From NCBI GenBank assembly GCA_015039365.1, contig WION01000026.1:1-64000 (forward strand): a DNA stretch of 64,000 bases, given 5' to 3'. The stretch is from Amanita rubescens. Taxonomy: Eukaryota; Basidiomycota; Agaricomycetes; Agaricales; Amanitaceae. Positions 6,801 to 61,325 of the stretch are shown here, one piece after another. Under the pieces are notes generated by a model, which saw only the letters and a list, made by a program, of their open reading frames with translations, ran no database searches and was not told the DNA's origin. A program made the position numbers and the translations under genes. Position 1 is the first letter of the stretch; every line of letters starts with the position of its first letter.

Positions 6801-8222
6801 TCTGCAGCACTAAACTGCAAAACTGTCGGTTTAGTCATTGAAGGTAAAAGCAGTTCGAGTATTTGGCGAAGCGATTCATGGAAGAGGTGGCGCCGAAACT
6901 TGCGGAATTCGTCGGAGTCTTCGTGTTCTCTGTCCGCTATGAGTATGTTAGTTTTACGAAGCAATTACAGGAAATTTAACTCACTTTTTGGAATAGCTAG
7001 AAAGCCGATTAACGAAACCCCATTGCGATGCCCACGTCGAACATTATTATGTATGAGACCATTTGATAGATAAAATGGATGGTAATCGTTTTGGCCTGTC
7101 GCTACCGAGACCGTTGTCTTGTCACTGCCAGCGACAGTAGGACAAAATGTTGCGCCGTGATTTCCCGTGTCTTCAGCAAGGATGTCCTAAAAGGAGATAA
7201 ATGAGCCAACTTCGGCAAAATTGTAAAGTTTACGAACGGCTTGACGCCAAGCCCATCTACCCGACATGAAATCTTCGTACCGACGAGTTCCGTTCGCATC
7301 TGAGATTATTTTTGGAGCAAAGTCCATTTCGGTTGCGAAATCTCGATTTGAGAGCTGTCGGCTCAAGACTTTGAGAGGATCGCGGTACCATATGTCATAT
7401 TTCCTATGCTTCCACGGCGCATCATTCTCCTCGTTTATTTCGCCGTTGTAAGATACAGTGAAAGATTCCCAGGGAACGTCGCCATGGGTAATTGCGTCGA
7501 TTGTTGCGTACAAGTGTTCTGCATTGATGAAGGGCGGCTCTGCATCCGGATCATACTGTTCAGTGAGTTTTCGCGCTAGTATTTGCATTAGGTCATTTAT
7601 TTCGGTCTTTGACATTTGCGCGCGCTTGTAAAGTAGCTCGGCCATCTCAAAGTCTGCTCGGTCAGCAAATGGATAGAAATCGTCGGGATCAGGATCCTCC
7701 CAGGGTGGAGGGGGTGACCCATCTGGAAGAAATTCCCCTTGAGCATTGCAAGGGCGACCTGCCAGCGTCTTGTATCAGCGCACGTATTTCGTTAGTAATG
7801 AAAGTAGGAAACTCACCATTGATCTGGGGATGGAATTCGACATTCCATTTACGTCCCATAGATTCATTGGCAGTTGCTTCTCGATTTGATGAACAGCGCC
7901 TTAAATTCCGAGGTGCCGATGCCAGATCATCGTCATGCTTGGGGTCCGGCTGAGCATCACCCCAACCTCGGAAATCATCTGTGCCACCAAAATAATAATC
8001 TTCATCGTCACTATGCTGCGGTTGGGGAGGAGGGGGGGAAGGGGAATGTATCCAATCATCCGGGCTGGTTACAGTTGAAGGCTGACGCTGGATCGGTTGC
8101 GGTACTCGTTTACAAGTGTTCAAATGGCACTTCATGCCTGAAGTACTCAAAAAAAACTTGCCGCACCCATTATGACATGGGATATTTCGTGGATGGAATT
8201 GTTTGCGACGGAGGGGAGGCAT
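3881..8222 (-). pseudogene. Plavaka transposase, interrupted by a hAT insertion
   Basis: Read on the minus strand. The start ATG at 8222 (MPPLRRKQFHPRN) is followed by a Cys/His zinc finger (CHNGCGKFF...MKCHLNTC). Next is the block MAELLYKRAQMSKTEINDLM...LKVLSRQLSNRDF (7645-7340). Then come DSDEFRKFRRHLFHESLRQI (near 6920), GHYRRVIFGLGPYIGDYPEQ (near 5800), DIHELLSPDILHQLIKGVFKDHL (5520-5400), QSFLQVYLPAISGLVPPRMV and the C-terminal FRAFFVNKFIDYHSHESIF, with its stop at 3881. This block order is what I know from Plavaka transposases of Agaricomycetes. Several short introns separate the blocks, for example GTGAGCAG after QGWCAR. The 968-bp hAT element at 5845 splits the frame between LQF and ADGHYRR. 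Ignoring the insertion and one target duplication, the two halves meet in frame, so the gene was probably functional until recently. An alternative upstream start is at 8282. Confidence 0.85.
5837..6820. mobile_element. Non-autonomous hAT element with target duplications
   Basis: The element itself is 5845-6812 (968 bp). Its left end TAGTGCTGCAGAG... (5845-5865) is perfectly inverted at 6792-6812 (21 bp). The flanks AACTGCAA at 5837-5844 and AACTGCAA at 6813-6820 form an exact 8-bp target site duplication. Eight-bp duplications and ends of the form YARNG are hallmarks of the hAT superfamily. Both subterminal zones (about 5860-6020 and 6600-6800) are packed with GGACCGGTCC-like palindromic motifs, probably transposase-binding sites. 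No long open frame lies inside, so mobility would need a transposase supplied in trans. The perfect ends and duplication imply a young insertion. Confidence 0.92.
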
Positions 8223-15599: not shown

Positions 15600-18190
15600 A
15601 TATGTAGCAACCTCTCAATCATTTTGATTCAAGTAATTTTGGCAGATCACATGACCCTTCACACCAGCCAGCTGGTGTGAAGGATCATGTGACCATAGAC
15701 TAATTGGCTCACTTAGGCTAAACAACTGCCCAGTCATCATGGCACCTACAGATACCTGAAAGTTTTTGTAATGCAGCTGTGATAATCTGCACACAAGTGA
15801 ACTACACACAAATGAGGAATATATATATGTATAGCAACATCTCAATCATTTTGATTCAAGTAATTTCAGCAGATCACATAGACTAACTGTCTTGTTTAGG
15901 CACCTAAACAATTGTCCAGTCATCATGGCAAGTATGGACACCTGAACTAGTCTTTGTAATGCAGCTGTGATATTGAAGATCTCTGGCACACAAGTGAACT
16001 ACACATAAATGAGGAATGCATATATGTATAGCAACCTCTCAATCATTTGGTTCAAGCAGTTTTGGAGATCACATGACCCTTCACACCAGCTGGCTGGTGT
16101 GAAGGGTCATGTGACATAGACTAACTGTCTTGTTTAGGCACCTGAACAACTGTCCAGTCATCATGGCAAGTATGGACATTTGAAAGGCTTTGTAATGCAG
16201 CTGTGATATTGAAGATCTGCATACAAGTGAACTATACAACATGAATATGTATAGCAACCTCACAATCATTTTGATTCAACTAATTTCAACAGATCACATC
16301 ACCATAGACTAATTGGCTCATTGAAGCACCTAGTGACTTGTTTGAGGCAAAATGATGAGAGATTGCTATATCTTCATTTGTGCAGTGCTTTTGTGTGCAG
16401 ATCTTCAATATCACAGCAGCATTGTGAAGCCTTTCAAGTGTCCATACTTGCCATGATGGCTGGACAATTGTTAGGTGCCTAAACAAGACAGTTAGTCTAT
16501 GTCACATGACCCTTCACACCAGCCAGCTGGTGTGAAGGGTCATGTGATCTCCAAAACTGCTTGAACCAAAATGATTGAGAGGTTGCTATACATATATGCA
16601 TTCCTCATTTATGTGTACTAGTTCACTTGTGTGCAGATCTTCAATATCATAGTCACATTATAAAGCCTTTCAAATGTCCATACATGCCATGATGACTGGG
16701 CACTTGTTTAGGTGCCTAAACAAGACAGTTAGTCTATGTCACATGACCCTTCACACCAGCTGGCTGGTGTGAAGGGTCATGTGATCTCCAAAACTGCTTG
16801 AACCAAAATGATTGAGAGGTTGCTATACATATATGCATTCCTCATTTATGTGTAGTTCACTTGTGTGCAGATCTTCAATATCACAGCTGCATTACAGAGA
16901 CTAGTTCAGGTGTCCATACTTGCCATGATGACTGGACCATTGTTTAGGTGCCTAAACAAGACAGTTAGTCTATGTAATCTGCTGAAATTAGTTGGATCAA
17001 AATGATTGTGAGGTTGCTATACATATTCATGTTTGTATTCTTCAATTGTATGTAGTTCACTTGCATGCAGATCTTCAATATCACAGTCACATTACAAAGC
17101 CTTTCAAATGTCCATACTTGCCATGATGACTGGGCACTTGTTTAGGTGCCTAAGCAAGGCAGTTAGTCTAGGTCACATGACCCTTCACACCAGCCAGCTG
17201 GTATGAAGGGTCATGTGATCTCCAAAACTGCTTGAACCAAAATGATTGAGAGGTTGCTATACATATATGCATTCCTCATTTGTGTGTAGTTCACTTGTGT
17301 GCAGATCTTCAATATCAGTCACATTACAAAGACATTACAAAACCTTTCAAGTGTCCATACTTGCCATGATGACTGGACAATTGTTAGGTGCCTAAACAAG
17401 ACAGTTAGTCTATGTCACATGACCCTTCACACCAGCCAGCTGGTGTGAAGGGTCATGTGATCTCCAAAACTGCTTGAACCAAATGATTGAGAGGTTGCTA
17501 TACATATATGCATTCCTCATTTATGTGTAGTTCACTTGTGTGCCAGAGATCTTCAATATCACAGCTGCATTACAAAGACTAGTTCAGGTGTCCATACTTG
17601 CCATGATGACTGGACAATTGTTTAGGTGCCTAAACAAGACAGTTAGTCTATGTGATCTGCTGAAATTACTTGAATCAAAATGATTGTGAGGTTGCTATAC
17701 ATAGTTCACTTTTGTGCAGATCTTATATCACATCTGCCTCACAAAGCCTTCCAGGTGTCCATACTTGGCATGATGACTGGGCAGTTAGTTGTTTAGGTGT
17801 ATAAACAAGACAGTTAGTCTGTGATCTGCCAAATTGAACTGCTTGAATCAACTTGAATGGGAGGTTCATATTCTTCATTTGTGCAGATCTTCCATACCTT
17901 AGCTCCATTGTGAAGCCTTTCAAATATTTACACTTGCCATAATGACTAGGTAGTTGTTTGTGAACTTAACTGAGCCAGTTAGTCTATGGTCACAGTATAA
18001 TCTGCCAAAATTGCTTGAATCAGAATGAATGAAAATTGCTATTGGTATTTGCATCATTGTGTGCAGATTTTCTTTACCACAGCTGTTATAAAGCCTTTCA
18101 AATCTCCACACTCCTATATTTACCAGGCAGTTGCTTGGGTGTAGACTAGCTGGCTCACTTAGGCACATAAACAGCTTAGTACCAGGTGCA
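15600..18190. repeat. Inverted satellite array, 200-240-bp units
   Basis: Units contain GATCTTCAATATCACAG, CCATACTTGCCATGATGACTGG, GTGCCTAAACAAGACAGTTAG and GAGGTTGCTATACATATATG. From 15600 to about 16340 they run in one orientation; from 16340 to about 18190 in the other. The two halves form a very large inverted repeat centred near 16.34 kb. Unit starts on the right side fall near 16400, 16638, 16871, 17073, 17306 and 17548, so lengths vary by about 40 bp. The variation follows presence or absence of the 44-bp palindrome. Units decay toward 18.2 kb. No coding frame is supported. Confidence 0.9.
15648..17459. repeat. 44-bp palindrome, six copies within the satellite
   Basis: Two 21-bp arms, CACATGACCCTTCACACCAGC and its complement, surround a 2-bp centre. 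Copies lie at 15648-15691, 16070-16113, 16503-16546, 16740-16783, 17174-17217 and 17416-17459. Two copies (15648 and 17174) have one mismatch each. The centre is CA or TG depending on copy. Neighbouring units near 15875, 16290, 16975 and 17655 lack it and read straight through. Confidence 0.9.
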
Positions 18191-19410
18191 TTTGTGCTAA
18201 TTTGTTGCTATGAAAAGTGTGAACACTTCAACTTATTGTACCTCAATGCAACTATGTGATGCTGAATGAGACAAAGGCAGACATATGAAAGAAGGCTTTC
18301 TTTGTATAGCAGAGTAGAAGGTGTACTGCCACAGGTGTCAGCAAATGGATAGTGGTAATGCATTTCCAAATGGAGCCAATTAATTGAAAGCAGACATGAT
18401 GCACTAGCTTCCTGTGTCAATGGAGGTCTTGGGCCCTGGCATGTGGTAACAGCAGCTTTGCAGGAAATCATGCAAGGTATCAGAGCAGAGCCTGTTTACC
18501 CACTCACATGCACGTAATGAAGAATTGCAGCTGCAGGTTGTAATGTGTGATATGTAACTGTCACATCCTCCAAATATGGAAAGTCACCATGAGAGGGCTG
18601 TACTTTGTTTCCCTCATATTACAAGAACTACTCCACCAATTACTTAGCTATTCTAGAGTTGATATCCAATGCATATAAGCTTTCATTTGATGTATTTACT
18701 CTCAGGAAAAAATGGTTCTTTGTTATACATATATAAGTATAAAATTCATATTAATTCTTTGTTGTCAGACCACATAGTACAAATGGTGCTCCATGACAAA
18801 ATGTTGAGAACAGATATACAGTACAGTAGTACAAAAGCAGAAAACTGAATAAGAAAGGCTGAAAGTACTATAGCTAATGAGTTAAACATGAGAAGATACT
18901 AGGGGAAAGTTGACATGCCATCATTGAGTGGAGGTTTTACTAGGATGCACTGAAGATACTATATCAGCAATTCCAGCTCAAAGAAGACAGGGACTGAGTT
19001 ACATAATAAATTGTTAAGAACTATTTTTCTGAATTCAGCACACTCTGTGTCAGATGGCTGATGTTTGATGGTGAACCAATCATTGATGTCCTTTGACCTC
19101 AAGTAGTGATCCACTTCTTGTTCAACCAGTGCATGCTGGGTCTTCAGATAAAGTTTCCAGGCCTTGGTGAAGCCATCAGTGGAATTGCAGCCTTGCTGGA
19201 CAAGCCAGAAGGAATGTTCAAGACAGATGAGGATGGCTGTCCATGTAATAGTAAGAAACTGTAAATATAGGAGAAAGGGTAAAATTAATCAGACCAATAA
19301 AACAATGCAAAGAAGGTGCCTATGTAATTGGGAATACTTGAGTGAAGGGGATGAAAAGAATGAAATGTGATCTTACATTGAATTGAGTGTCCATAAGGCC
19401 CTGAACATGG
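18191..19410. other. AT-rich spacer between two satellites
   Basis: No supported gene. The stretch 18200-18480 still carries weak similarity to satellite motifs. The short frames up to 19380 have no recognisable product. Confidence 0.45.
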
Positions 19411-22255
19411 TTCACCTGTCAGCAATTCAAATTGAGCTAGGAGGCACACAGTCACTCACTGCCTGGATGGGATTTCATGGCAACATGTCAGCAATTCAAA
19501 TTGAGCTAGGAGGCACACAGTCACTCACTGCCTGTATGGGATTTCATGGCAACATGTCAGCAATTCAAATTGAGCTAGGAGGCACACAGTCACTCACTTC
19601 CTGGATGGGATTTCATGGCAACATGTCAGCAATTCAAATTGAGCTAGGAGGCACACAGTCACTCACAAACTGGATGGGATTTCATGGCAACATGTCAGCA
19701 ATTCAAATTGAGCTAGGAGGCACACAGTCACTCACAACCTGGATTGGATTTCATGGCAACATGTCAGCAATTCAAATTGAGCTAGGAGGCACACAGTCAC
19801 TCACTCGCTGGATGGGATTTCATGGCAACATGTCAGCAATTCAAATTGAGCTAGGAGGCACACAGTCACTCACAACCTGGATGGGATTTCATGGCAACAT
19901 GTCAGCAATTCAAATTGAGCTAGGAGGCACACAGTCACTCACTCCCTGGATGGGATTTCATGGCAACATGTCAGCAATTCAAATTGAGCTAGGAGGCACA
20001 CAGTCACTCACTGCCTGGATGGGATTTCATGGCAACATGTCAGCAATTCAAATTGAGCTAGGAGGCACACAGTCACTCACAACCTGGATGGGATTTCATG
20101 GCAACATGTCAGCAATTCAAATTGAGCTAGGAGGCACACAGTCACTCACAAACTGGATGGGATTTCATGGCAACATGTCAGCAATTCAAATTGAGCTAGG
20201 AGGCACACAGTCACTCACAACCTGGATTGGATTTCATGGCAACATGTCAGCAATTCAAATTGAGCTAGGAGGCACACAGTCACTCACTCGCTGGATGGGA
20301 TTTCATGGCAACATGTCAGCAATTCAAATTGAGCTAGGAGGCACACAGTCACTCACTTCCTGGATGGGATTTCATGGCAACATGTCAGCAATTCAAATTG
20401 AGCTAGGAGGCACACAGTCACTCACTCCCTGGATGGGATTTCATGGCAACATGTCAGCAATTCAAATTGAGCTAGGAGGCACACAGTCACTCACTCCCTG
20501 GATGGGATTTCATGGCAACATGTCAGCAATTCAAATTGAGCTAGGAGGCACACAGTCACTCACTGCCTGGATGGGATTTCATGGCAACATGTCAGCAATT
20601 CAAATTGAGCTAGGAGGCACACAGTCACTCACAAACTGGATGGGATTTCATGGCAACATGTCAGCAATTCAAATTGAGCTAGGAGGCACACAGTCACTCA
20701 CAACCTGGATGGGATTTCATGGCAACATGTCAGCAATTCAAATTGAGCTAGGAGGCACACAGTCACTCACTCGCTGGATGGGATTTCATGGCAACATGTC
20801 AGCAATTCAAATTGAGCTAGGAGGCACACAGTCACTCACTCGCTGGATGGGATTTCATGGCAACATGTCAGCAATTCAAATTGAGCTAGGAGGCACACAG
20901 TCACTCACTCGCTGGATGGGATTTCATGGCAACATGTCAGCAATTCAAATTGAGCTAGGAGGCACACAGTCACTCACAAGCTGGATGGGATTTCATGGCA
21001 ACATGTCAGCAATTCAAATTGAGCTAGGAGGCACACAGTCACTCACAAGCTGGATGGGATTTCATGGCAACATGTCAGCAATTCAAATTGAGCTAGGAGG
21101 CACACAGTCACTCACAAGCTGGATGGGATTTCATGGCAACATGTCAGCAATTCAAATTGAGCTAGGAGGCACACAGTCACTCACTTCCTGGATGGGATTT
21201 CATGGCAACATGTCAGCAATTCAAATTGAGCTAGGAGGCACACAGTCACTCACTCGCTGGATGGGATTTCATGGCAACATGTCAGCAATTCAAATTGAGC
21301 TAGGAGGCACACAGTCACTCACTGCCTGGATGGGATTTCATGGCAACATGTCAGCATTCAAATTGAGCTAGGAGGCACACAGTCACTCACTGCCTGGATG
21401 GGATTTCATGGCAACATGTCAGCAATTCAAATTGAGCTAGGAGGCACACAGTCACTCACTCCCTGGATGGGATTTCATGGCAACATGTCAGCAATTCAAA
21501 TTGAGCTAGGAGGCACACAGTCACTCACTGCCTGGATGGGATTTCATGGCAACATGTCAGCATTCAAATTGAGCTAGGAGGCACACAGTCACTCACTGCC
21601 TGGATGGGATTTCATGGCAACATGTCAGCAATTCAAATTGAGCTAGGAGGCACACAGTCACTCACTCCCTGGATGGGATTTCATGGCAACATGTCAGCAA
21701 TTCAAATTGAGCTAGGAGGCACACAGTCACTCACTCCCTGGATGGGATTTCATGGCAACATGTCAGCAATTCAAATTGAGCTAGGAGGCACACAGTCACT
21801 CACTCCCTGGATGGGATTTCATGGCAACATGTCAGCAATTCAAATTGAGCTAGGAGGCACACAGTCACTCACTGCCTGGATGGGATTTCATGGCAACATG
21901 TCAGCAATTCAAATTGAGCTAGGAGGCACACAGTCACTCACTGCCTGGATGGGATTTCATGGCAACATGTCAGCAATTCAAATTGAGCTAGGAGGCACAC
22001 AGTCACTCACTCTCTGGATGGGATTTCATGGCACCATGTCAACATTCAAATTGAGCTAGGAGGCACACAGTCACTCACTCGCTGGATGGGATTTCATGGC
22101 ACCATGTCAACATTCAAATTGAGCTAGGAGGCACACAGTCACTCACTCTCTGGATGGGATTTCATGGCACCATGTCAACATTCAAATTGAGCTAGGAGGC
22201 ACACAGTCACTCACTCTCTGGATGGGATTTCATGGCAACATGTCAGCAATTCACA
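19411..22255 (+). repeat. 69-bp satellite, about 41 copies, single variable triplet
   Basis: The unit encodes, in one plus-strand frame, MSAIQIELGGTQSLT-x-WMGFHGN (23 residues). Twenty-eight units keep this frame open from 19383 to 21371. A 1-bp loss (TCAGCATTC for TCAGCAATTC) then breaks it, and recurs in later copies. Between CTCAC and CTGG each unit carries one of eight triplets: TGC, TTC, TCG, TCC, TCT, AAA, AAC or AAG. Almost nothing else varies; two units have ATTGG for ATGGG and one has GTATGG for GGATGG. The order shows local runs (TCG x3, AAG x3, TCC x3) and a repeated AAA-AAC(ATTGG)-TCG block. The last four or so units carry CACC and AACATTC variants. The long frame may be chance, because 69 is divisible by three. 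Confidence 0.93.
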
Positions 22256-22599
22256 AGTTACCTTCCTATCACTTTGAAATTCTTACATTTGTCCCCTTAT
22301 CATTTGCATAATTAGTATATTGTCAAATTAGCTTAATGTCATACTCACATACTGAACATCCAGGTTAAACTTGGTCACCAATATTTGGTCATGATACTTA
22401 CATCCTGAAACATCTGTGATCACCATCTTCCCTGGCTCAAGTAGAAGTGAACTCTCACATAATCCTTCTCAATTTCAGTCATGGCTCAAGAAAATGCATT
22501 CAATTTGCATGCCTGCCAATAGCAATGTGCAAACCAAGATGCAGCTTTGTAAATCAAGTTATCCTTTGTTCATTTGAGCACTCAAATTTCTACAATTCA

Positions 22600-23855
22600 A
22601 GAAAAAATGTACCACTGTTGAGGTATCCTTAAAGATAAACCTAAAATAGAGAGATAAGTTGAAGAAACAGAAGACAAGTGGATGACAGACTTGTTCACTG
22701 CACATTCAATGCAGACCTCTAGGTTATTCTGTTGGACAGTGACAAACAACATCTTCAGTGCCAAGTCATCAATTGATGCCGCCGTCTGTTTGATTAGTTT
22801 CCCAACTTGTTCCTGATGATTACCTTCATCCTTCTCAATAGCTGGACACACTATAAGTCCCAAGATTGGTTGCTAAAGGAGAAGAGACATACATTCAAAT
22901 TGCACATATGCACAAGGTGAAGACTTATAATGCTTGAGTGGCTCCTCAAACTTCTCCTTCAAGGTAGCACAAGCAACTTCTCTATTCTCCTCTTCTTCTT
23001 TATTTATATCATAGACCTGCGTGATGAGATCATCAAATTTTGTGAAGATTGCCACAACTGGAACTGTTCATTGTCAGTCACAATGAAGAGTTTGGAGATT
23101 TTAAATGATCTTACCATTCCCGCAATATTTCTCATTGAAGAACCTCTGTTCCAATTCCAATAATGGGCGAGATACATCCGGAGTGAAACAAAACCTGAAC
23201 ACATTGTCAGTTGCGCTACATAAAGGAAGGATATAACACACCATATCACATGGATTTGGTCCTTTACTTCAGTTGCTTTCGCCTTCTCCTGTATGAAAGA
23301 GCGTACTTCCTGAAGTTCCTTCTCGCCTCCTGCCTCGAAACCGGGAGAGTCATGGAAGATAAATTGTGGGTTGCTATTGAATGAAAACTCGTCATGGACA
23401 TTATGGATCCCTCGCTACAGAATCAAAGTCAACAACCTGGTTAGAGAAATGCACAAGGATCACCTTCGAGGATGGGTTAATCTGTCGGTGAAGGGGTGAT
23501 GATAGTGCCAGGGTATCAAGGGAAGCGGATATCTTACCTTGCTGTAAACCGGATCCTCCTTTGTATTGCAGACCCGCTTGAGCAGCGTCGTTTTACCAGC
23601 ATTCGCCCTCCCGATGACAAGGATACGGAAGTGGGTGTACTTGGCCCGGAGTTTTGCAGCTTCTACCGGGTCGATCGTCATCGTTGATACAGTGGGTGCT
23701 AGATCAGCTGGACTCGGAGGCACAGCAATGGTTGGAGGTGCCGAATTCGAGAGGCTAGGAGGCGTACCGTTCTGCGATCCCCGTCCGAACATCTTCTTCA
23801 GGCGATTTCGAAATCCCTTGGATTCTTTGGCAGTCTGCAACCGTTGTTCAGCCAT
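22600..23855 (-). CDS. P-loop GTPase (G-domain) protein, possibly damaged 3' end
   Basis: Exon 1 begins MAEQRLQTAKESKGFRNRLK and contains the Walker A motif GRANAGKTTLL, then NTKEDPVYSK and a GTAAGA donor. Exon 2 (from 23414) reads RGIHNVHDEFSFNSNPQFIF and HDSPGFE, the G3 box. Exon 3 (from about 23206) is WFCFTPDVSRPLLELEQRFF. Exon 4 is VPVVAIFTKFDDLITQVYD, with the TKFD G4 box. A last block, LALKMLFVTVQQNNLEVCIE, ends near 22690. Large families of this GTPase type occur in Agaricomycetes; their substrates are unknown. Exons 1-4 join cleanly. After YVQFE only a 20-bp gap (GTATGT...TTTAG) separates it from QPILGLIVCPAIEK, shorter than a normal intron, so the 3' part may be damaged. The gene abuts the satellite on its 3' side. 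Confidence 0.65.
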
Positions 23856-41431: not shown

Positions 41432-42700
41432 TCAAACATTCGTACAACGTTCACTAGATTCCTGGATCCAATCCTGTGCCATTCCCGGTGAAACCCCCAC
41501 TATATCTAACTGCCTCCTAAACTCCCGCCTGATCTTGTCCCTTCCGTCGTCGTCATGGCGTGCCTCACCAAGTTCCCTGTCAAAGACCAAACGCAGCTTC
41601 GTCTTTTCCCAGTTCTCCCAGCGCTCCACCCTGAATGCGTCCGTATCGCCTGGGGCAAGTGGCTCGATCTCTTCTGTAATCTCTGGACCAAGCAGGAACT
41701 GTGGGTACGGGTCCTCCCAGTGGGGTCGAGTACCGACACACTCCCAGTCGATGATTCCCGTAATCTGGTATGTTGCCGGGTCGACGAGAATATTGCGAAG
41801 AGAAAGGTCGTGATGTTGCAATGCGAAATTACGGGGCTGAGATGGGAAGAGTACAGAGAGAACTGGTTGGAGCTTGTTCAACACCTGTATAATGTCTTCC
41901 GCATCCTCGGCGAGATCCTCGTCAAAGTCGCTATATAGACGAGAATCTGGCGATAGTAGTAGCTTCATGTCTTCCAGCTCCGAAGCAGCTAGTGAAGCGA
42001 TATACTCTGCATCGTTGGAGTACGGTCCGAGATCCCTAGGTACACGCAGTTTGCGCCCCCCGGCAAACATGTAGGGTGTGACGAGAGGACCGAGGACATA
42101 TTTCTCATCCTCCGTGCATAACACACGAACCGCGGCGTTGAATGTATTGATCTCTTCACGGAAATAGAGATTTCCAATCCCAGTGAAGCACCGTAGATCT
42201 CGAAGTTGGCGCACATAGCCCACGACGGACCTCGTCACCTTACTCTTAGTTTCCAGGTCAATGTCACTCCAAGCATCTGCCAGAGCAACCCCTGGGACCT
42301 TTTCCATCAGGGTCCACTCGCAGCCAACCTCATTATCTGAGGTAGAGCTGTGGGCAATGATACGTGGTACTGGAATGGACGTATGTTCCTGTAGGTAGGA
42401 ATGGGTCGCGACCTCACCTGCGGTCTTGAAAAAAGGCTCCACAGGCGCGGTTGCGCGGAATATGTACTGAGGGGAGACGAGAGTGCTACCGTTATTGGAA
42501 ACGGTGATAGCGAACAATTTGTTGAAGGCACCTTCTGCGAAGAAGGTTGCAGAAATGTGATCACTCGCAGAGAGCCGGAGGTGCTTCCTGGCGACTGATT
42601 CGATCGCGGTAACATCAGGAGGCGAGAGCCAGCGCGGAATGGGACCCCAGATGCCAGATTCCCAGATAAATCGGGGCTGGGACATGTAATGAGGTATCAT
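41432..42700 (-). CDS. APH-family phosphotransferase-like protein
   Basis: A single uninterrupted frame of 422 codons. It starts MIPHYMSQPRFIWESGI; a second ATG five codons later is equally possible. The fold is that of aminoglycoside/choline-kinase-like proteins. The nucleotide-lobe stretch TFFAEGAFNKLFAITVSNNG comes first. EWTLMEKVPGVALADAW is the hinge. FALQHHDLSLRNILVDP carries the catalytic HxDxxxxN loop, and ITGIIDWECVGT provides the Mg-binding Asp. All key residues are present, so it is probably active on a small molecule; fungal members of this family rarely act on antibiotics. It starts 170 bp from the Crinkler gene at 42870, divergently. Confidence 0.8.
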   Translation of the reverse strand: MIPHYMSQPRFIWESGIWGPIPRWLSPPDVTAIESVARKHLRLSASDHISATFFAEGAFNKLFAITVSNNGSTLVSPQYIFRATAPVEPFFKTAGEVATHSYLQEHTSIPVPRIIAHSSTSDNEVGCEWTLMEKVPGVALADAWSDIDLETKSKVTRSVVGYVRQLRDLRCFTGIGNLYFREEINTFNAAVRVLCTEDEKYVLGPLVTPYMFAGGRKLRVPRDLGPYSNDAEYIASLAASELEDMKLLLSPDSRLYSDFDEDLAEDAEDIIQVLNKLQPVLSVLFPSQPRNFALQHHDLSLRNILVDPATYQITGIIDWECVGTRPHWEDPYPQFLLGPEITEEIEPLAPGDTDAFRVERWENWEKTKLRLVFDRELGEARHDDDGRDKIRREFRRQLDIVGVSPGMAQDWIQESSERCTNV

Positions 42701-47544: not shown

Positions 47545-50500
47545 ATGTTTGGTGGAGGATCTGTAAACCCATACGACGATATTGTCGGTAAGTTCAACTA
47601 GTATTACAAAGATGCTTATTTACTGACTCCAGGATAAGGTAAAACCACCGACGAGAATCTCACAAGTGAGAATTGGGAGCTTATCCTCAATCTATGCGAT
47701 AAAGTCTCGGATGAAGGTCAAGAAGGGTCAGTTTCGTCGTAATTCTTCTTGACTGTGTTACTGATCTGTTCTGCGCAACAGGGCCCGCAATGTTATTGCG
47801 GCGATATTGAAACGACTCGCTCATCGGAATCCGAACGTACAGTTGTACGCTCTTGCCTTGACCGAATCCCTTTCAAAGAATTGTGGTGTGGTGATGAATC
47901 GCGAGATCGCTTCGAGGGCGTTTACCCAGGGTTTGGAAAAGCTCATTACGGATCGAGTAAGTTCCGAGTCCTAGAGGAGGAAAAGCCCTCATTGGTCGTT
48001 CAGAACAGCCACGATAAAGTGAAAAAGAGGGCATTGGCGTTGATTGTAACTTGGACTGCGGAATTTGAGAATGATCCTACCTTGGGGATTATGGAAGAGT
48101 GTTTTAATAATCTCAAGGGAAAAGGTCAGGTCTTTGGAATGAACGCTAAAACTCTCTAACCCTCGAATAGGTCACAAGTTTGAAGTGCCTCAAGAACCGC
48201 TGCCACCTTCCGTTGATGACGAGATCAGGAGAAAGGAAGAGGAAGAGCTGCAACGTGTATTAGAGCTCTCTATGCAAGACAAGGGCGGGCGTGGCCAATG
48301 GAGTCAATACTCTCTTGCGGCATCATCCTCATCATCAGCGCCAAGCTCCCAACCTGCCCAATCATCGGCTTCCGCTATTACAGCTACTCGCCCCTCTTCC
48401 TCTTCCCACGTAACAAAGGCACCATCCAGAACGTCCTCCTTGGCGCATAAACAACAACCACCTACCTATCAAGGTGGCTATGCCCCTGCTAGATCCCCAT
48501 CTCCACCCGCAGCGGTGGCCCCCCAATCTTCTCCTCCTCCGCAGCAACAGCAACCGCAACCGCAGCATCGTCAATCGCTTTCTGTACACCAACATTCCTC
48601 TCCCTCCATTGCGTCCCATCAACAACAACAACCTGCTACACCCATCGTCACTTCTACTTCTCCAACCCCTTCTTTGACCGCCGTCTCTTCTTCTGCCTCT
48701 GCCTTGTATGGTACTGGTGTTGCCCCATCCGCAGCCATCGTAACCCGTGTGCGCGCCCTGCACACATTTGAACCAACCGAACCCGGAGAATTAGCTTTTG
48801 AAAAAGGGGACATTATCCGCGTCGTCGATCGCGGATACAAAGATTGGTGGAGAGGTCAGTTGAAAGGCCGAACTGGGATATTTCCCGTCAACTACGTGGT
48901 ACGTGTGTGTCCAGTCTTGGTCCAGCCTTAAGTCTCGGGGCTAATAATGTGGGACAGGAACCGATGCCTGAACCGACTGCGGTAGAGTTGGGTAAAGAAG
49001 CGGAGCAGGAAGCTTCGGTGTTTGCGCAGGCTGTAAACGTTGAAAAGTTGTTGAATATGTTGAGGTCGTTTGATTCTGCCAAGGATAATTTGGCTGATAA
49101 TGAGGAAATTCAAGTATGGAGTTTTTTTCTTCTTCCCAGAGAAGGGTGCTTAACATCTTTGACAGGAACTTTATCGCTCGTGTATGGCGTTGAGGCCCAA
49201 GATTGTCAAGTTGATTGACAAGTACAGTCAGAAACGCGGTGAGTCGAGTTTAAAGATTCGCAGTGTTCAATTGCTTAACAGTATACTACAGCTGACCTTG
49301 TGTCGATGAACGAAACGTTTATCAGAGCTCGGGCGATATTTGACCGAATGATGGAAGAAAGTTTGGCAAAGCACAGTGCTTGTATGCGTCTTTTTTTACA
49401 TCTCCTCCCGCACCACTAAACGTATAACATAGATTACGAACACACCTACCCCTATGGTGGCCCTGATCCCCGCGCCCGCGTAGGCTCTCCCATAGCATCA
49501 GGACCACAACAATACGGCTGGAACCCCTCGCTGTACGATCAATCCGGTTACGGCCCTTATCCTCCTCAAGGTCCACCTTACCCTGCTCAACACGAACCAC
49601 CTGCCCAATATACCTCTCCCATACAGAACCCTGGTTACCCCGCTCAACCTAACCCGCACGACGCGGCTGCATATGCCGCTTCTACCACTCCTGCGCCTGC
49701 GTCGACGCCTGGCGCTGCGTATAACGAACCTTCGACGTATGTTCGAACTCCTCAGGGTCAGGTCCAGGTACACGCGTATTCTCCTCCGGGAACGTATCAT
49801 GCCCCTGCTCAGATGGGCGCTGCTGGTGTACCTTACGGTGCAACTCCGTATCCTGCTCAGGCGGCTGCTCAACCTCAATCGCAGCCAGTTCCGGCTCAAG
49901 CTCAAGCTCAGGCCCAGGTTCATCCCCAGCCGCAGACACAGCCTCAGGTACAGCCGCAACCGCAACCGCAACCGCAGGCTCAAGCGTATCATCAGGAGTA
50001 TCAGACGCAAGAGTATCCGCCTCAGGGAGGACAAGTGCCTTCGCAAGGGTATCATGCGGAGTATCATGGTCATCCTCAGCAGCAGCAGCAGCAACCGGCG
50101 CAGGCTCAGGGAGCGCAAGTGCCGCAAGGGTATCATGCGTCTGAGTACCAGCAACAACAGCAACAACCAGCGCAGGTCCAAGGAGCGCAAGTGCCACAAG
50201 GGTATCATGCAGATTATCAGAGTCTTCCTCAGCAACAACAGCAACCGGCGCAGTCACCCGTTATCCAGACCCTCCAACCAACGATAATCTCTCAACAATC
50301 GGTTTCGCAACATCAACCTCAGGCACAGCCACAGCCTCAAGTCCGACATATGTCCACCGACTCGATCACGGCTGGTCAAGCCGAGGCTCAAGCTCAACAA
50401 CTGGCACAAGGACCAATGGAGACCCAAGATCAACCCCAGGCTCAGCAATCTCAAGCCGCTCAAGGATCTCAGAGCGAAACGTCCGGTCAACAAGCACAAA

Positions 50501-58601: not shown

Positions 58602-61182
58602 TTACGACGAAGTCTTGACGTGCTTCTTCGCTGTTCCGATCGTCGTATTGTTCACCTATCGTTAAACGGTCAGGAACGTTTCCCAAGGAAGTGAATACAC
58701 CGGACCTTTGTTGCGAACCGCAAGGAGGTCAATGACTCTTGAAGATGCGTGGCGAGTGGGGAGAGATTAAGGACCATCTAACGATAATTAAGAGGATACG
58801 TCAAGATAAGTATATGCAACGCTCACCAGAGTCTTTGAATTACCACTAAGCGAGTTCTGAAGTAAATAAGTAAGCTGCCATCCACTAGTCAGCAAAACAA
58901 CTCTCAGACCATCGATACTTGCTCGCATTACCTTGGAATTCCGATACGGTATATGCTTGTTAGCCGCGTCTCCGCGCTCCCCAAGCGCAGCGATAACATC
59001 TCCCAACGCGCTTAAACTCTTGTTGATATTCTGCGTCTCCCTCACCCTTTCCTTATCCGCAACGACGCCCGGCGCGAAACTGACATTCAACCTCTCGCTA
59101 CCCGCCAGATCGACGAGATTCAGCGACCCCTCGCACCGTTCGCCTGTTCCGCCAATGTAAGAGCTCGTAGAGCTGAAAGGATCGCCGTTCCCGACGTTTC
59201 CGATGCCAACGTTGATACCGATTATACGAAGAGTGAATACGGAATGGGAGCGAGAAGAACGCTCGTTGACAAGCGTAGCTGCTACGCTTCGTCGTGATTG
59301 GGCGAGCGATAACAAAGTTTTGACTTGAGACGATGATGTGAGGGGGACGATGGTTAGATCTGTGACGCGTGTTGCGCCCGTCTTTGGATCATGCTTGATC
59401 TCGTGTTTCTTCTCTATTGTCGAGTTTGCAGGGGCCAAAAGGTCATGTATAGATTCGTTATACTAATAGGTTGGATAAGTCAAAGGACGTCGCGAAATTT
59501 TTGGAATGCATGCGTACAATCTCGAGGAATTGTCCTTCCATCTTGTACTGCCAACCTTTAGTTTTCATAAATTCGGTGACGCGGAAGACCTGCTCCACTG
59601 CTCTCGGAATCATACCAACCGTTGTTTCGGTCTATGAATAACCCTCAATGAGCATCACTCCGAGAAAAGCCGGCGTTTCACTTACCGTGCCGCCTTCCAT
59701 CGTGAAGGATTTGCCAGATCCAGTCTGGCCATATGCAAAGATGCATACGTTATAACCGTCGATACAGCTTTGAGCAAGCTGAGAAATTTCTTCAAAGACT
59801 TCCCCTTGCGTCGATTCTGGTTCGAATACCTATAAAGAAACATTAGAACGGGATGAAATTCAATAACATAAGGGACCTACCCTGTCGAAACCAAAACTGT
59901 ACACTTCTTTCCGTTCTTGACCGGTGGCGCTTTCGCTGGAGGAGTGTAGGACGATTTCTTTGTGATCTCTCCGATCAGGAAAGGTTACATGTGCTTGCAC
60001 CTCCTCCTTTAACCCGTTAAACTCGGCCTGTGTCAACGAGCTCACATCACTTGTTGACGTCAGCGACACGATATCGGAGGGAAGTACAGGCCGGACGCGA
60101 CAAAAAACGCGAATGTTGCCTTTGAGTTCTTGTACCATATTATGCAGCTTCCGCCGCACCATCTCGCTCTCCATCGTCTCCAACTTGAGCGCATCGACCT
60201 CTTTACTGGACGACTCCAACCTAAACCGCAAGTCGGAAACCGTCCGGGAATATTCATCAATCTGCGACTGCAGCGCACCGACTTGCGCCTGCAACGCGGT
60301 ATTTTGTGATGTTAGAGCAATTTGCGCCGTCGCCTGTTGAGCCACGCTGCCCTTGAGCGTAGCCACCTGTCCCCGCTCTCGTTCGAGGTCTCCTCTACAG
60401 ATCCTCAGATCCTCGGTAACCTCGCGAGCTTCCCTCTCCTTCCTCCTCAAATCCATCTCCAGCTCCATAACCTCTTTCCCATGAGCCTTCCTCATCTTAT
60501 CAATTTCATCAGACGCCAACACAAGCTCCCGCCGCTGCGCAAGCTCCTGCGTCTTAGCAGCCGTCAGCTCGCGCGACAAAGTCGAATGACCCGCTTGCAA
60601 CTCGGTCACTTTAGTACGCTCCGCTTCCATATCTGCAGCTAACCGCGCTGAATCGGCCGCCCGGGCAGACTCGAGCATCTCTAACTGCGTCTGTAAATCA
60701 TTGAATCGTTTATCTTGCGCGGCGGGGGCTCGTGTACGTGCAGGACCCGAGACAACCCTTCCCGCTGCTGTTTTGCTCCGAGTATTTGGTCTCACGGTTG
60801 GACGGACTGTGGATGCGGGTGGAGGAGCGCTAGTACCCCGTGGTTGTTTCGCGATTGGCGGCGCAGGTTGCGCCTGTGTCGCGGTCTTGTGTTGCGGTTT
60901 GGGAAGTGAGGAGTTGAGTGCCGTACGCGATGGTTGAAGAGGTCTATTCGGCCGATTGAGTCCAATGGCAGGCAGTTTGCGTGGTTGATCTGAGGCTTCA
61001 ACGCTGTCCTCGTCGTCTGATTGTCTCGACTTGCGTTTCAAGCTTGGATTCGTTGTGACCATGGTTGTTGTTGGTTCGGTTGCTTTTGCTTTTGCTTTAT
61101 GTCTTGTGGTGATGGTGGAGAATAGCGTAGGGGGATAATTCGCCCCTGGAGAAGTTTGTTGACGACGAGGAAGTCTGGACAT
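58602..61182 (-). CDS. KAR3: Kinesin-14 (Kar3-type, C-terminal motor)
   Basis: The start at 61182 ([20 protein letters not shown]) is preferred; an in-frame ATG 26 codons upstream adds an unlikely tail. A basic, disordered N-terminus (microtubule binding) precedes a coiled coil (about residues 170-350). The motor begins [26 protein letters not shown] is spliced to [20 protein letters not shown] and [16 protein letters not shown], the P-loop. Later are [15 protein letters not shown] (switch I), [13 protein letters not shown] (switch II), [17 protein letters not shown] and YRNSK. Two terminal exons gave [24 protein letters not shown] and then [17 protein letters not shown], stop 58602-58604. 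The family moves to microtubule minus ends in spindle and karyogamy. Complete. Confidence 0.9.
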
Positions 61183-61325
61183 TTTCTCAAGCGCGCTCGT
61201 GTGGCTGAGAAAATCGAACCCTGCAACGCGCAGGATCACATGACCGCGTTGATCCAGCACTTGCGCCCACGTCGGACGCGTTCAAAAACCCGTATTGTTG
61301 ACAGTGCCTAATCCCAAATGGAGGT

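Follow-up and report, generated by a model that had tools for sequence, protein, structure and literature searches.

The internally highly conserved repeat domains of fungal NLRs and the repeats of TAL effectors are built of near-identical units with few differing codons, which form a recognition segment. Other systems come close in different respects. The HYP effectors of cyst nematodes carry a hypervariable segment that arises by shuffling of a small repertoire between constant flanks with the reading frame kept (PMC11228951). The schistosome micro-exon genes (MEGs) have 10-20 exons, the majority of 15 bp in a range given as 3-81 bp or 6-81, separated by introns of 0.1-5 kbp (PMC10526429). 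Introners, or introner-like elements, are near-identical introns that multiply in genomes, fungi included (PMC9860276; PMC4457414), and stwintrons are unusual, propagating fungal introns (PMC8469720, PMC12403724). The subject of this text is a 69-bp satellite at positions 19411..22255 of the first 64,000 nucleotides of contig WION01000026.1 of the basidiomycete Amanita rubescens (assembly GCA_015039365.1; this whole stretch is called the window). The array is probably part of an MMR_HSR1 GTPase gene, in which spliceosomal introns, 40 in number and near-identical, separate 41 exons of one codon each that are shuffled in a frame-safe manner; this reading of the sequence is given a probability of roughly three in four.

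In NLR and TAL proteins the repeats are protein repeats, whereas in the Amanita gene the constant part would be the intron and only the variable codon would be kept. MEGs resemble the Amanita gene in having very short exons one after another, with lengths mostly divisible by three, that give variable proteins. In the available part of the MEG source, however, the introns are long and are not described as mutual copies (PMC10526429), while Amanita has dozens of consecutive one-codon exons and short near-identical tandem introns in fungal P-loop NTPase genes. By the definition of a MEG, most of the coding sequence lies in micro-exons separated by long introns; here the introns have 65-66 nt and the G domain is in ordinary exons. 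Unlike introners, the Amanita introns are tandem, codon-spaced and gained or lost as intron plus codon; unlike the nested stwintrons, they are serial with a codon between them. A comparison with HYP effectors had been proposed from the sequence alone. It holds as an analogy, a small repertoire being shuffled in both cases between constant flanks without loss of frame, and goes no further: in HYP genes a single exon holds the whole variable domain, whose motifs span several residues (PMC11228951), whereas the Amanita residues are separate exons in the model and the homology is supplied by the intron.

The array and its gene in the window

Tandem Repeats Finder places the repeat at 19417-22253 with a period of 69, 41.2 copies and 97% matches. 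Together with splitting at the variable site, this confirms that ~41 units are near-identical except for one triplet of eight kinds. On the + strand the 41 triplets are TGC (10), TCG (7), TCC (7), AAC (5), TTC, AAA, AAG and TCT (3 each), and the rule that the first base is T unless the next is A is true for all 41. Among the 40 spacers between them, 32 are one identical 66-mer and three are single-base variants of two kinds; the remaining five have 65 nt, three of them with base changes too. With a per-site diversity of 0.561, the triplet is ~220 times as variable as the 66-nt units (0.0025). The confinement of variation to a single triplet, as originally noticed, is real, far above chance and seen again in other arrays of the gene family.

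The minus-strand sequence of the spacer is GTGAGTGACTGTGTGCCTCCTAGCTCAATTTGAATTGCTGACATGTTGCCATGAAATCCCATCCAG, 66 nt long, with a GTGAGT donor, a branch-site-like GCTGAC and a CCAG acceptor, and the triplet is flanked by CCAG and GTGAGT. By these signals the unit is predicted to comprise a canonical 66-nt intron and a 3-nt exon. Some spacers have 1-nt deletions, which would be harmless because they are located in the intron. The sequence-only reading had made the triplet residue 16 of a 23-amino-acid repeat peptide; in the present model the coding strand is the opposite one, the triplet is a whole one-codon exon and the 66 constant bases are intron.

The spliced model runs from 23855 to 18959 on the minus strand and has 53 exons, 52 introns (51 GT-AG and one GC-AG) and a coding sequence of 1452 nt for 483 amino acids without internal stops. 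Its 3-nt exons number 42, as TAT (22349-22351) adds to the 41 array exons. The spliced protein matches Pfam MMR_HSR1 (PF01926; E 4.1e-8, 33.8 bits, cut-off 21.9) and has a P-loop; a PDB sequence search returned only a weak match to GTPase Der. The array string RRRRAAGGGAAGAARELLLRRRVFAGGERVFVAGVRVFEAA is placed between ...CYWQMFQDYGTN and GLMDTQFNFLTITWTAILICLEHSFW... in this protein. The array exons are in phase 0 because the downstream exon fixes the phase, which excludes the other codon phase (EDEEQQEEE...). The GTPase part has 1203 related proteins; its best matches are A. rubescens proteins, and the named organisms among the best 120 listed are chiefly Agaricales. The closest annotated model, P0001, ends ahead of the array; automatic annotation thus misses it, and similar proteins may be mispredicted in other mushrooms. 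The features of the model, all on the minus strand, are the following.

18959..23855 (-), whole gene model with 53 exons (spliced frame, Pfam)
23538..23855 (-), first coding exon, P-loop GRANAGKTT (gene model)
23242..23414 (-), G-domain exon, RGIHNVHDEF...FIFHDSPGFE (gene model)
23115..23194 (-), G-domain exon (gene model)
22893..23063 (-), G-domain exon, VPVVAIFTKFDD... (gene model)
22691..22850 (-), exon of the G-domain region, donor GTCTGT (gene model)
22613..22640 (-), exon with the end FIFKDTSTV (gene model)
22513..22563 (-), exon DNLIYKAASWFAHCYWQ, followed by the sole GC donor of the model (gene model)
22402..22413 (-), 12-nt exon (MFQD), with the alternative reading of a 3-nt exon GAT with acceptor TTTCAG
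22349..22351 (-), 3-nt exon TAT (Tyr), the Y of DYG, upstream of the array and also in relatives P0107 and P0121
22287..22295 (-), 9-nt exon (GTN), immediately upstream of the array (gene model)
19460..22217 (-), array of 41 three-nt exons and 40 introns of 65-66 nt, predicted to read RRRRAAGGGAAGAARELLLRRRVFAGGERVFVAGVRVFEAA
19377..19400 (-), 24-nt exon GLMDTQFN, immediately downstream of the array (gene model)
18959..19258 (-), last exon, 99 amino acids, hydrophobic segment LTITWTAILICLEHSFWLV (gene model)

Predicted one-codon exons in the genome and similar strings in related proteins

The strongest sign that the codons are read, as far as sequence comparison can tell, comes from exon conservation between C1 and C8 together with the alignment to related proteins. 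In C1:98000-111200 a splice caller without an exon-length rule gave, among exons of up to 15 nt, 59 of 3 nt and one of 12; on the opposite strand the same caller gave a single short exon, of 11 nt. The C1 gene belongs to the GTPase superfamily of the window gene, and C8 has a matching G-domain exon upstream. The diverged paralogues C1 and C8 have a chain of one-codon exons in common, 17 in a row (W F E Q G K K E T/A D R E T/I K Y/H D G), in which 48 of 51 exon bases are identical versus 710 of 959 intron columns with gaps counted (Fisher p 0.00068). Length differs in 13 of the 16 intron pairs.

The spliced C-terminus of the Amanita protein can be aligned, DYG included, with relatives P0107 and P0121, which have strings of A/G/R/F/V and G/L/R at the array site. 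In stretches whose ends were chosen by hand, residues belonging to the eight array residues number 32 of 36 in P0107, 23 of 29 in P0121, 32 of 36 in P0097, 20 of 29 in P0127, 24 of 28 in P0130 and 17 of 20 in P0131, with a background of 0.51. Searches with parts of P0107 and P0097 gave 7 and 10 proteins, queries counted. Several relatives, whose sequences of ~1-1.5 kb read through the intron sites, are most simply transcripts. P0125, a 488-amino-acid frame on a 5-kb contig, looks by eye like read-through of a similar intron array in another genome.

The 69-bp unit has 646 matches in the A. rubescens genome, falling in 28 candidate regions, and the unit places among the matches listed for these regions are in 22 of 22 cases arrays of the window GTPase family. 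The first 85 amino acids of the last exon have 27 genome matches, two of which are pieces of one copy. From unit and last-exon matches 26 loci were parsed (the window and L009-L033). Gene-model exons a, b, c, d, f and g with canonical signals are found in 23 of them (absent from L030, L031 and L033), while only some loci have exon e (AAG). The L031 copy is reduced to few units and the array is absent at L034. The last-exon match of L021 (C134) ends early and its remainder lies ~8.6 kb further on the same strand at C134:31421 (L034), as if this gene had been split by an insertion. L023 (C114), at a contig end, has many 1-nt duplications and losses, perhaps assembly errors, and is the source of one frame-shifting exon.

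The largest run per locus gives 23 distinct arrays with 535 exons, of which 530 have 3 nt, two 6 nt, two 4 nt and one 2 nt. The 530 triplets are GGA (164), GCA (77), CGA (68), TTT (66), CTT (63), CAA (33), GTT (18), GAA (17), AGA (12), TAT (4), TGG (2), plus six that occur once each. Codons with a final A number 375 and NTT codons 147; other array families use NAT and NGG codons as well. No stop occurs among the triplets, versus 30.3 expected from column frequencies. Internal introns deviate from 66 nt in 54 of 512 cases, and the ratio of triplet to intron diversity, where it can be formed, ranges from 4.4 in the oldest array to ~220.

In the old arrays L030 and L032 the units were located by their core, without requiring GT or AG. 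The 33 units of L030 have 16 changes in 14 splice-signal positions versus 115 in the 52 others (p 0.008), nine of the 16 concerning the purine of the CTRAC branch motif; the 23 units of L032 have 12 changes at splice signals versus 108 elsewhere (p 0.001). The gap between units is 3 nt in 31 of 32 cases in L030 and in 19 of 22 in L032. A private intron variant found in 21 units of L033 is accompanied by three triplet kinds, which indicates that introns were homogenised and codons were not.

The tandem unit pattern CAG-NNN-GTGAGT-N40..70-CAG-NNN-GTGAGT occurs 3526 times in the genome and its GTAAGT version 264 times, copies being counted more than once; the reversed-pattern control gives 0 in both cases. 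Second exons were counted at lengths of 2, 3, 4, 5, 6 and 9 nt. With a first exon of 3 nt, those of 2, 4, 5, 6 and 9 nt number 13, 15, 0, 35 and 9, again with 0 in the reversed-pattern controls, and both exons have 4 nt in three cases genome-wide. Some rows are ambiguous because the exon contains another AG, by eye at least 11 of the 35 with 6 nt, three of the 13 with 2 nt and one of the nine with 9 nt. Divisibility by three holds for 44 of 72 changed second-exon lengths (~32 of 57 without the ambiguous rows) and for nine of the 54 length-changed introns of the window family. The genome-wide length spectrum moderately favours a guarded frame. The arrays at C408:20048-22518, C749:2137-4212 and C13:581976-583158, where second exons of 2 or 4 nt cluster, are perhaps decaying, assembly errors or non-coding.

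Different arrays are filled by different intron families. The G-domain exon of the superfamily has 353 candidate places, of which 150 were scored, and 26 of the 35 six-nt-exon places have, by eye, a scored G-domain place within 8 kb upstream on the same strand; of the other nine, three are window-family loci and six have no G-domain place among those listed. A Pfam scan of the genome recovered the divergent GTPase family poorly and was not used. At C223:1459700-1465600 (L037/L040), 40 called 3-nt exons and one of 6 nt lie downstream of a NACHT domain (PF05729; E 3.3e-13, 50.2 bits, cut-off 26.7) on the same strand; introns have mostly 68 nt and the array reads ...RDYYYETRYETRYEEY...EELYYRRYRYGYDRRTTFNN. 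Domain and array probably form one gene. The window array appears as one young case of a genome-wide class found C-terminally in GTPase genes and also following a NACHT (NLR-like) domain, and a role in non-self or internal recognition is suggested, without proof. It is an evenly balanced proposition that in A. rubescens the C-terminal parts of many immune-type GTPases and NACHT proteins are written one codon per exon, with introns serving as homology cassettes for one-residue exon shuffling by recombination between genes, in which the frame is kept, and perhaps, the exons being in phase 0, with equally frame-safe alternative inclusion in RNA.

Probable turnover of codons and competing explanations

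Array copies were compared with their flanks, 2 kb upstream and 1 kb downstream. The pairs L009/L010, L018/L026 and L016/L027 have identical codon strings (16 + 32 + 17 = 65 exons with no difference) and flanks that differ by at most 1.6%. In L022/L027 (flanks 99.3 and 97.6-98.2%), L011/L016 (99.2 and 99.1-99.2%) and L014/L020 (99.2/98.6%, 7 versus 26 exons) the strings are no better alike than shuffles, and L013/L025 (flanks 100/99.4%, 28 versus 20 exons) have common ends and a different interior. Whole-string alignment of 21 chosen pairs beats shuffles (p<0.05) in 12, including the three identical ones, and does not in nine. Blocks shared between arrays exceed shuffles (p<=0.005) in only 5 of 231 pairs, and identical neighbouring codons do so (p<0.05) in 5 of 21 arrays, namely the window (12 versus 5.3), L011, L019, L020 and L024. 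The string comparisons suggest that whole units are gained, lost and exchanged, and they fit poorly with a point-mutation hot spot or with intron insertion between fixed codons.

Repeated mutation or editing of the triplet had been put forward in the sequence-only reading, as it has been for HYP effectors. Triplet diversity of up to ~220 times the intron diversity and the many different triplets that follow one identical intron variant speak for it; such targeted mutation is nevertheless unlikely, as none of the 65 exons differs in the three closely related pairs while their flanks differ by up to 1.6%, nine triplet kinds account for 518 of 530 with NNA-NTT intermediates almost absent, and unit number differs between copies with similar flanks. 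An introner-like invasion, in which one mobile intron inserted between pre-existing codons so that the codons are old and the introns new, would account for near-identical introns separating different codons. Introners are known in some fungi (PMC4457414; PMC9860276), and other arrays are filled by other intron families. Its chance is likewise small, because codon number tracks intron number in copies with similar flanks (7 versus 26) and because the unit places among the matches listed all belong to one gene family with a spacing of one codon.

The array could also be one long intron, spliced from the first donor to the last acceptor, with untranslated triplets in an intronic satellite of splice-like motifs. 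The outermost donor and acceptor exist, the spliceosome hardly defines 3-nt exons, a copy shrunken to few units occurs at L031 and exon length in the window family is no better guarded than intron length. This is very unlikely when set against the one-codon exons of C1 and C8, more conserved than their introns, the splice signals retained in all unit kinds of old arrays, the presence in homologous proteins of a comparable string and of the Y encoded by the adjacent 3-nt exon and, weakly, the stop-free triplets. A translated 23-amino-acid repeat protein on the + strand can hardly exist. Its open reading frame of 662 amino acids (19383-21371) is antisense to the GTPase gene with its conserved exons and interrupted by 1-nt deletions, the longest antisense open stretch spans 0.23 to 0.99 of the array in the 26 loci and less than 0.9 in 21 of them, and a two-unit piece had no Pfam match.

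In the preferred reading of serial one-codon exons, all array introns would be removed one after another, and each codon would join the chain as both flanking introns leave because a 3-nt exon is hardly recognisable alone. The result would be a string of R/G/A/L/F/V/E/Q, hypervariable and placed after the DYG motif and before the hydrophobic C-terminal segment. Whole codon-plus-intron units would be added, dropped or swapped by slippage, gene conversion or unequal crossing over, within or between paralogues. Such whole-unit recombination is possible because every codon sits between identical 66-nt introns; with exchange of units the reading frame is not lost and intron indels are harmless. Introns would be homogenised and codon variety maintained, most likely via selection on the variable segment. 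Selection is taken as the simplest reason for the codon variety; that it acts for diversity at the triplet site, as also considered before, is plausible but unproven.

Several observations weigh against this reading. Splicing of all 41 exons is deduced from sequence. To our knowledge, serial splicing of dozens of 3-nt exons has no tested precedent, and no description of tandem one-codon exons was found in the literature as judged by titles and abstract openings. The scarcity of stops discriminates weakly, because the columns are not independent and the other two frames are also stop-poor (1 of 516 and 5 of 514). Exon length in the window family is not more strongly guarded than intron length: 5 of 535 exons are changed versus 2.6 predicted by intron indels, which gives no sign of guarding, and three of these five are frame-shifting (L020, L023, L028). 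The last exon is damaged in L021, L023 and L026. Genome-wide there are 28 second exons of 2 or 4 nt, several of them clustered at C408, C749 and C13, and the 13 two-nt and nine nine-nt second exons weaken the near-absence of other lengths. The C1 and C8 exon lists were read by eye, each being then placed as a unique chain, and a third locus, L039, is without the 17-exon chain. Among the relatives, the inserts of P0119, P0122, P0128 and P0132 are shorter or of another kind, a hydrophobic stretch occupies the array site in P0010, and the cDNA status of P0107 and P0121 is judged from a sequence size of ~1 kb. Duplication of units alone would copy codons together with introns, and the third-base rule (A or NTT) is not accounted for by this reading.

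If true, the arrangement would be an architecture at the limit of splicing, with one intron per codon over dozens of codons and thousands of unit pairs, and a natural test bed for splicing via intron definition. It would represent a gain of introns together with codons, seen at different ages in the arrays of one genome, and would explain simply how reshuffling of a hypervariable segment can leave the frame intact.

Surroundings of the array in the window

Downstream of the GTPase gene, at 15600-18200 of the window, degenerate repeats of ~167-242 bp with inverted GGTCATGTGA and CCAGCTGGCTGG motifs look like a repeated remnant of a mobile element. A Plavaka transposase fragment (PF18759, E 1.4e-30) is found at 7187-7645 on the minus strand. 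A 34-bp minisatellite at 1291-1887 has 17.6 copies with 94% matches, and its unit is without a GTRAGT donor. The other neighbours are ordinary genes for an APH-family kinase-like protein (41432-42700, minus strand), an SH3 protein (48185-48931, plus strand) and a kinesin (58788-61260, minus strand).

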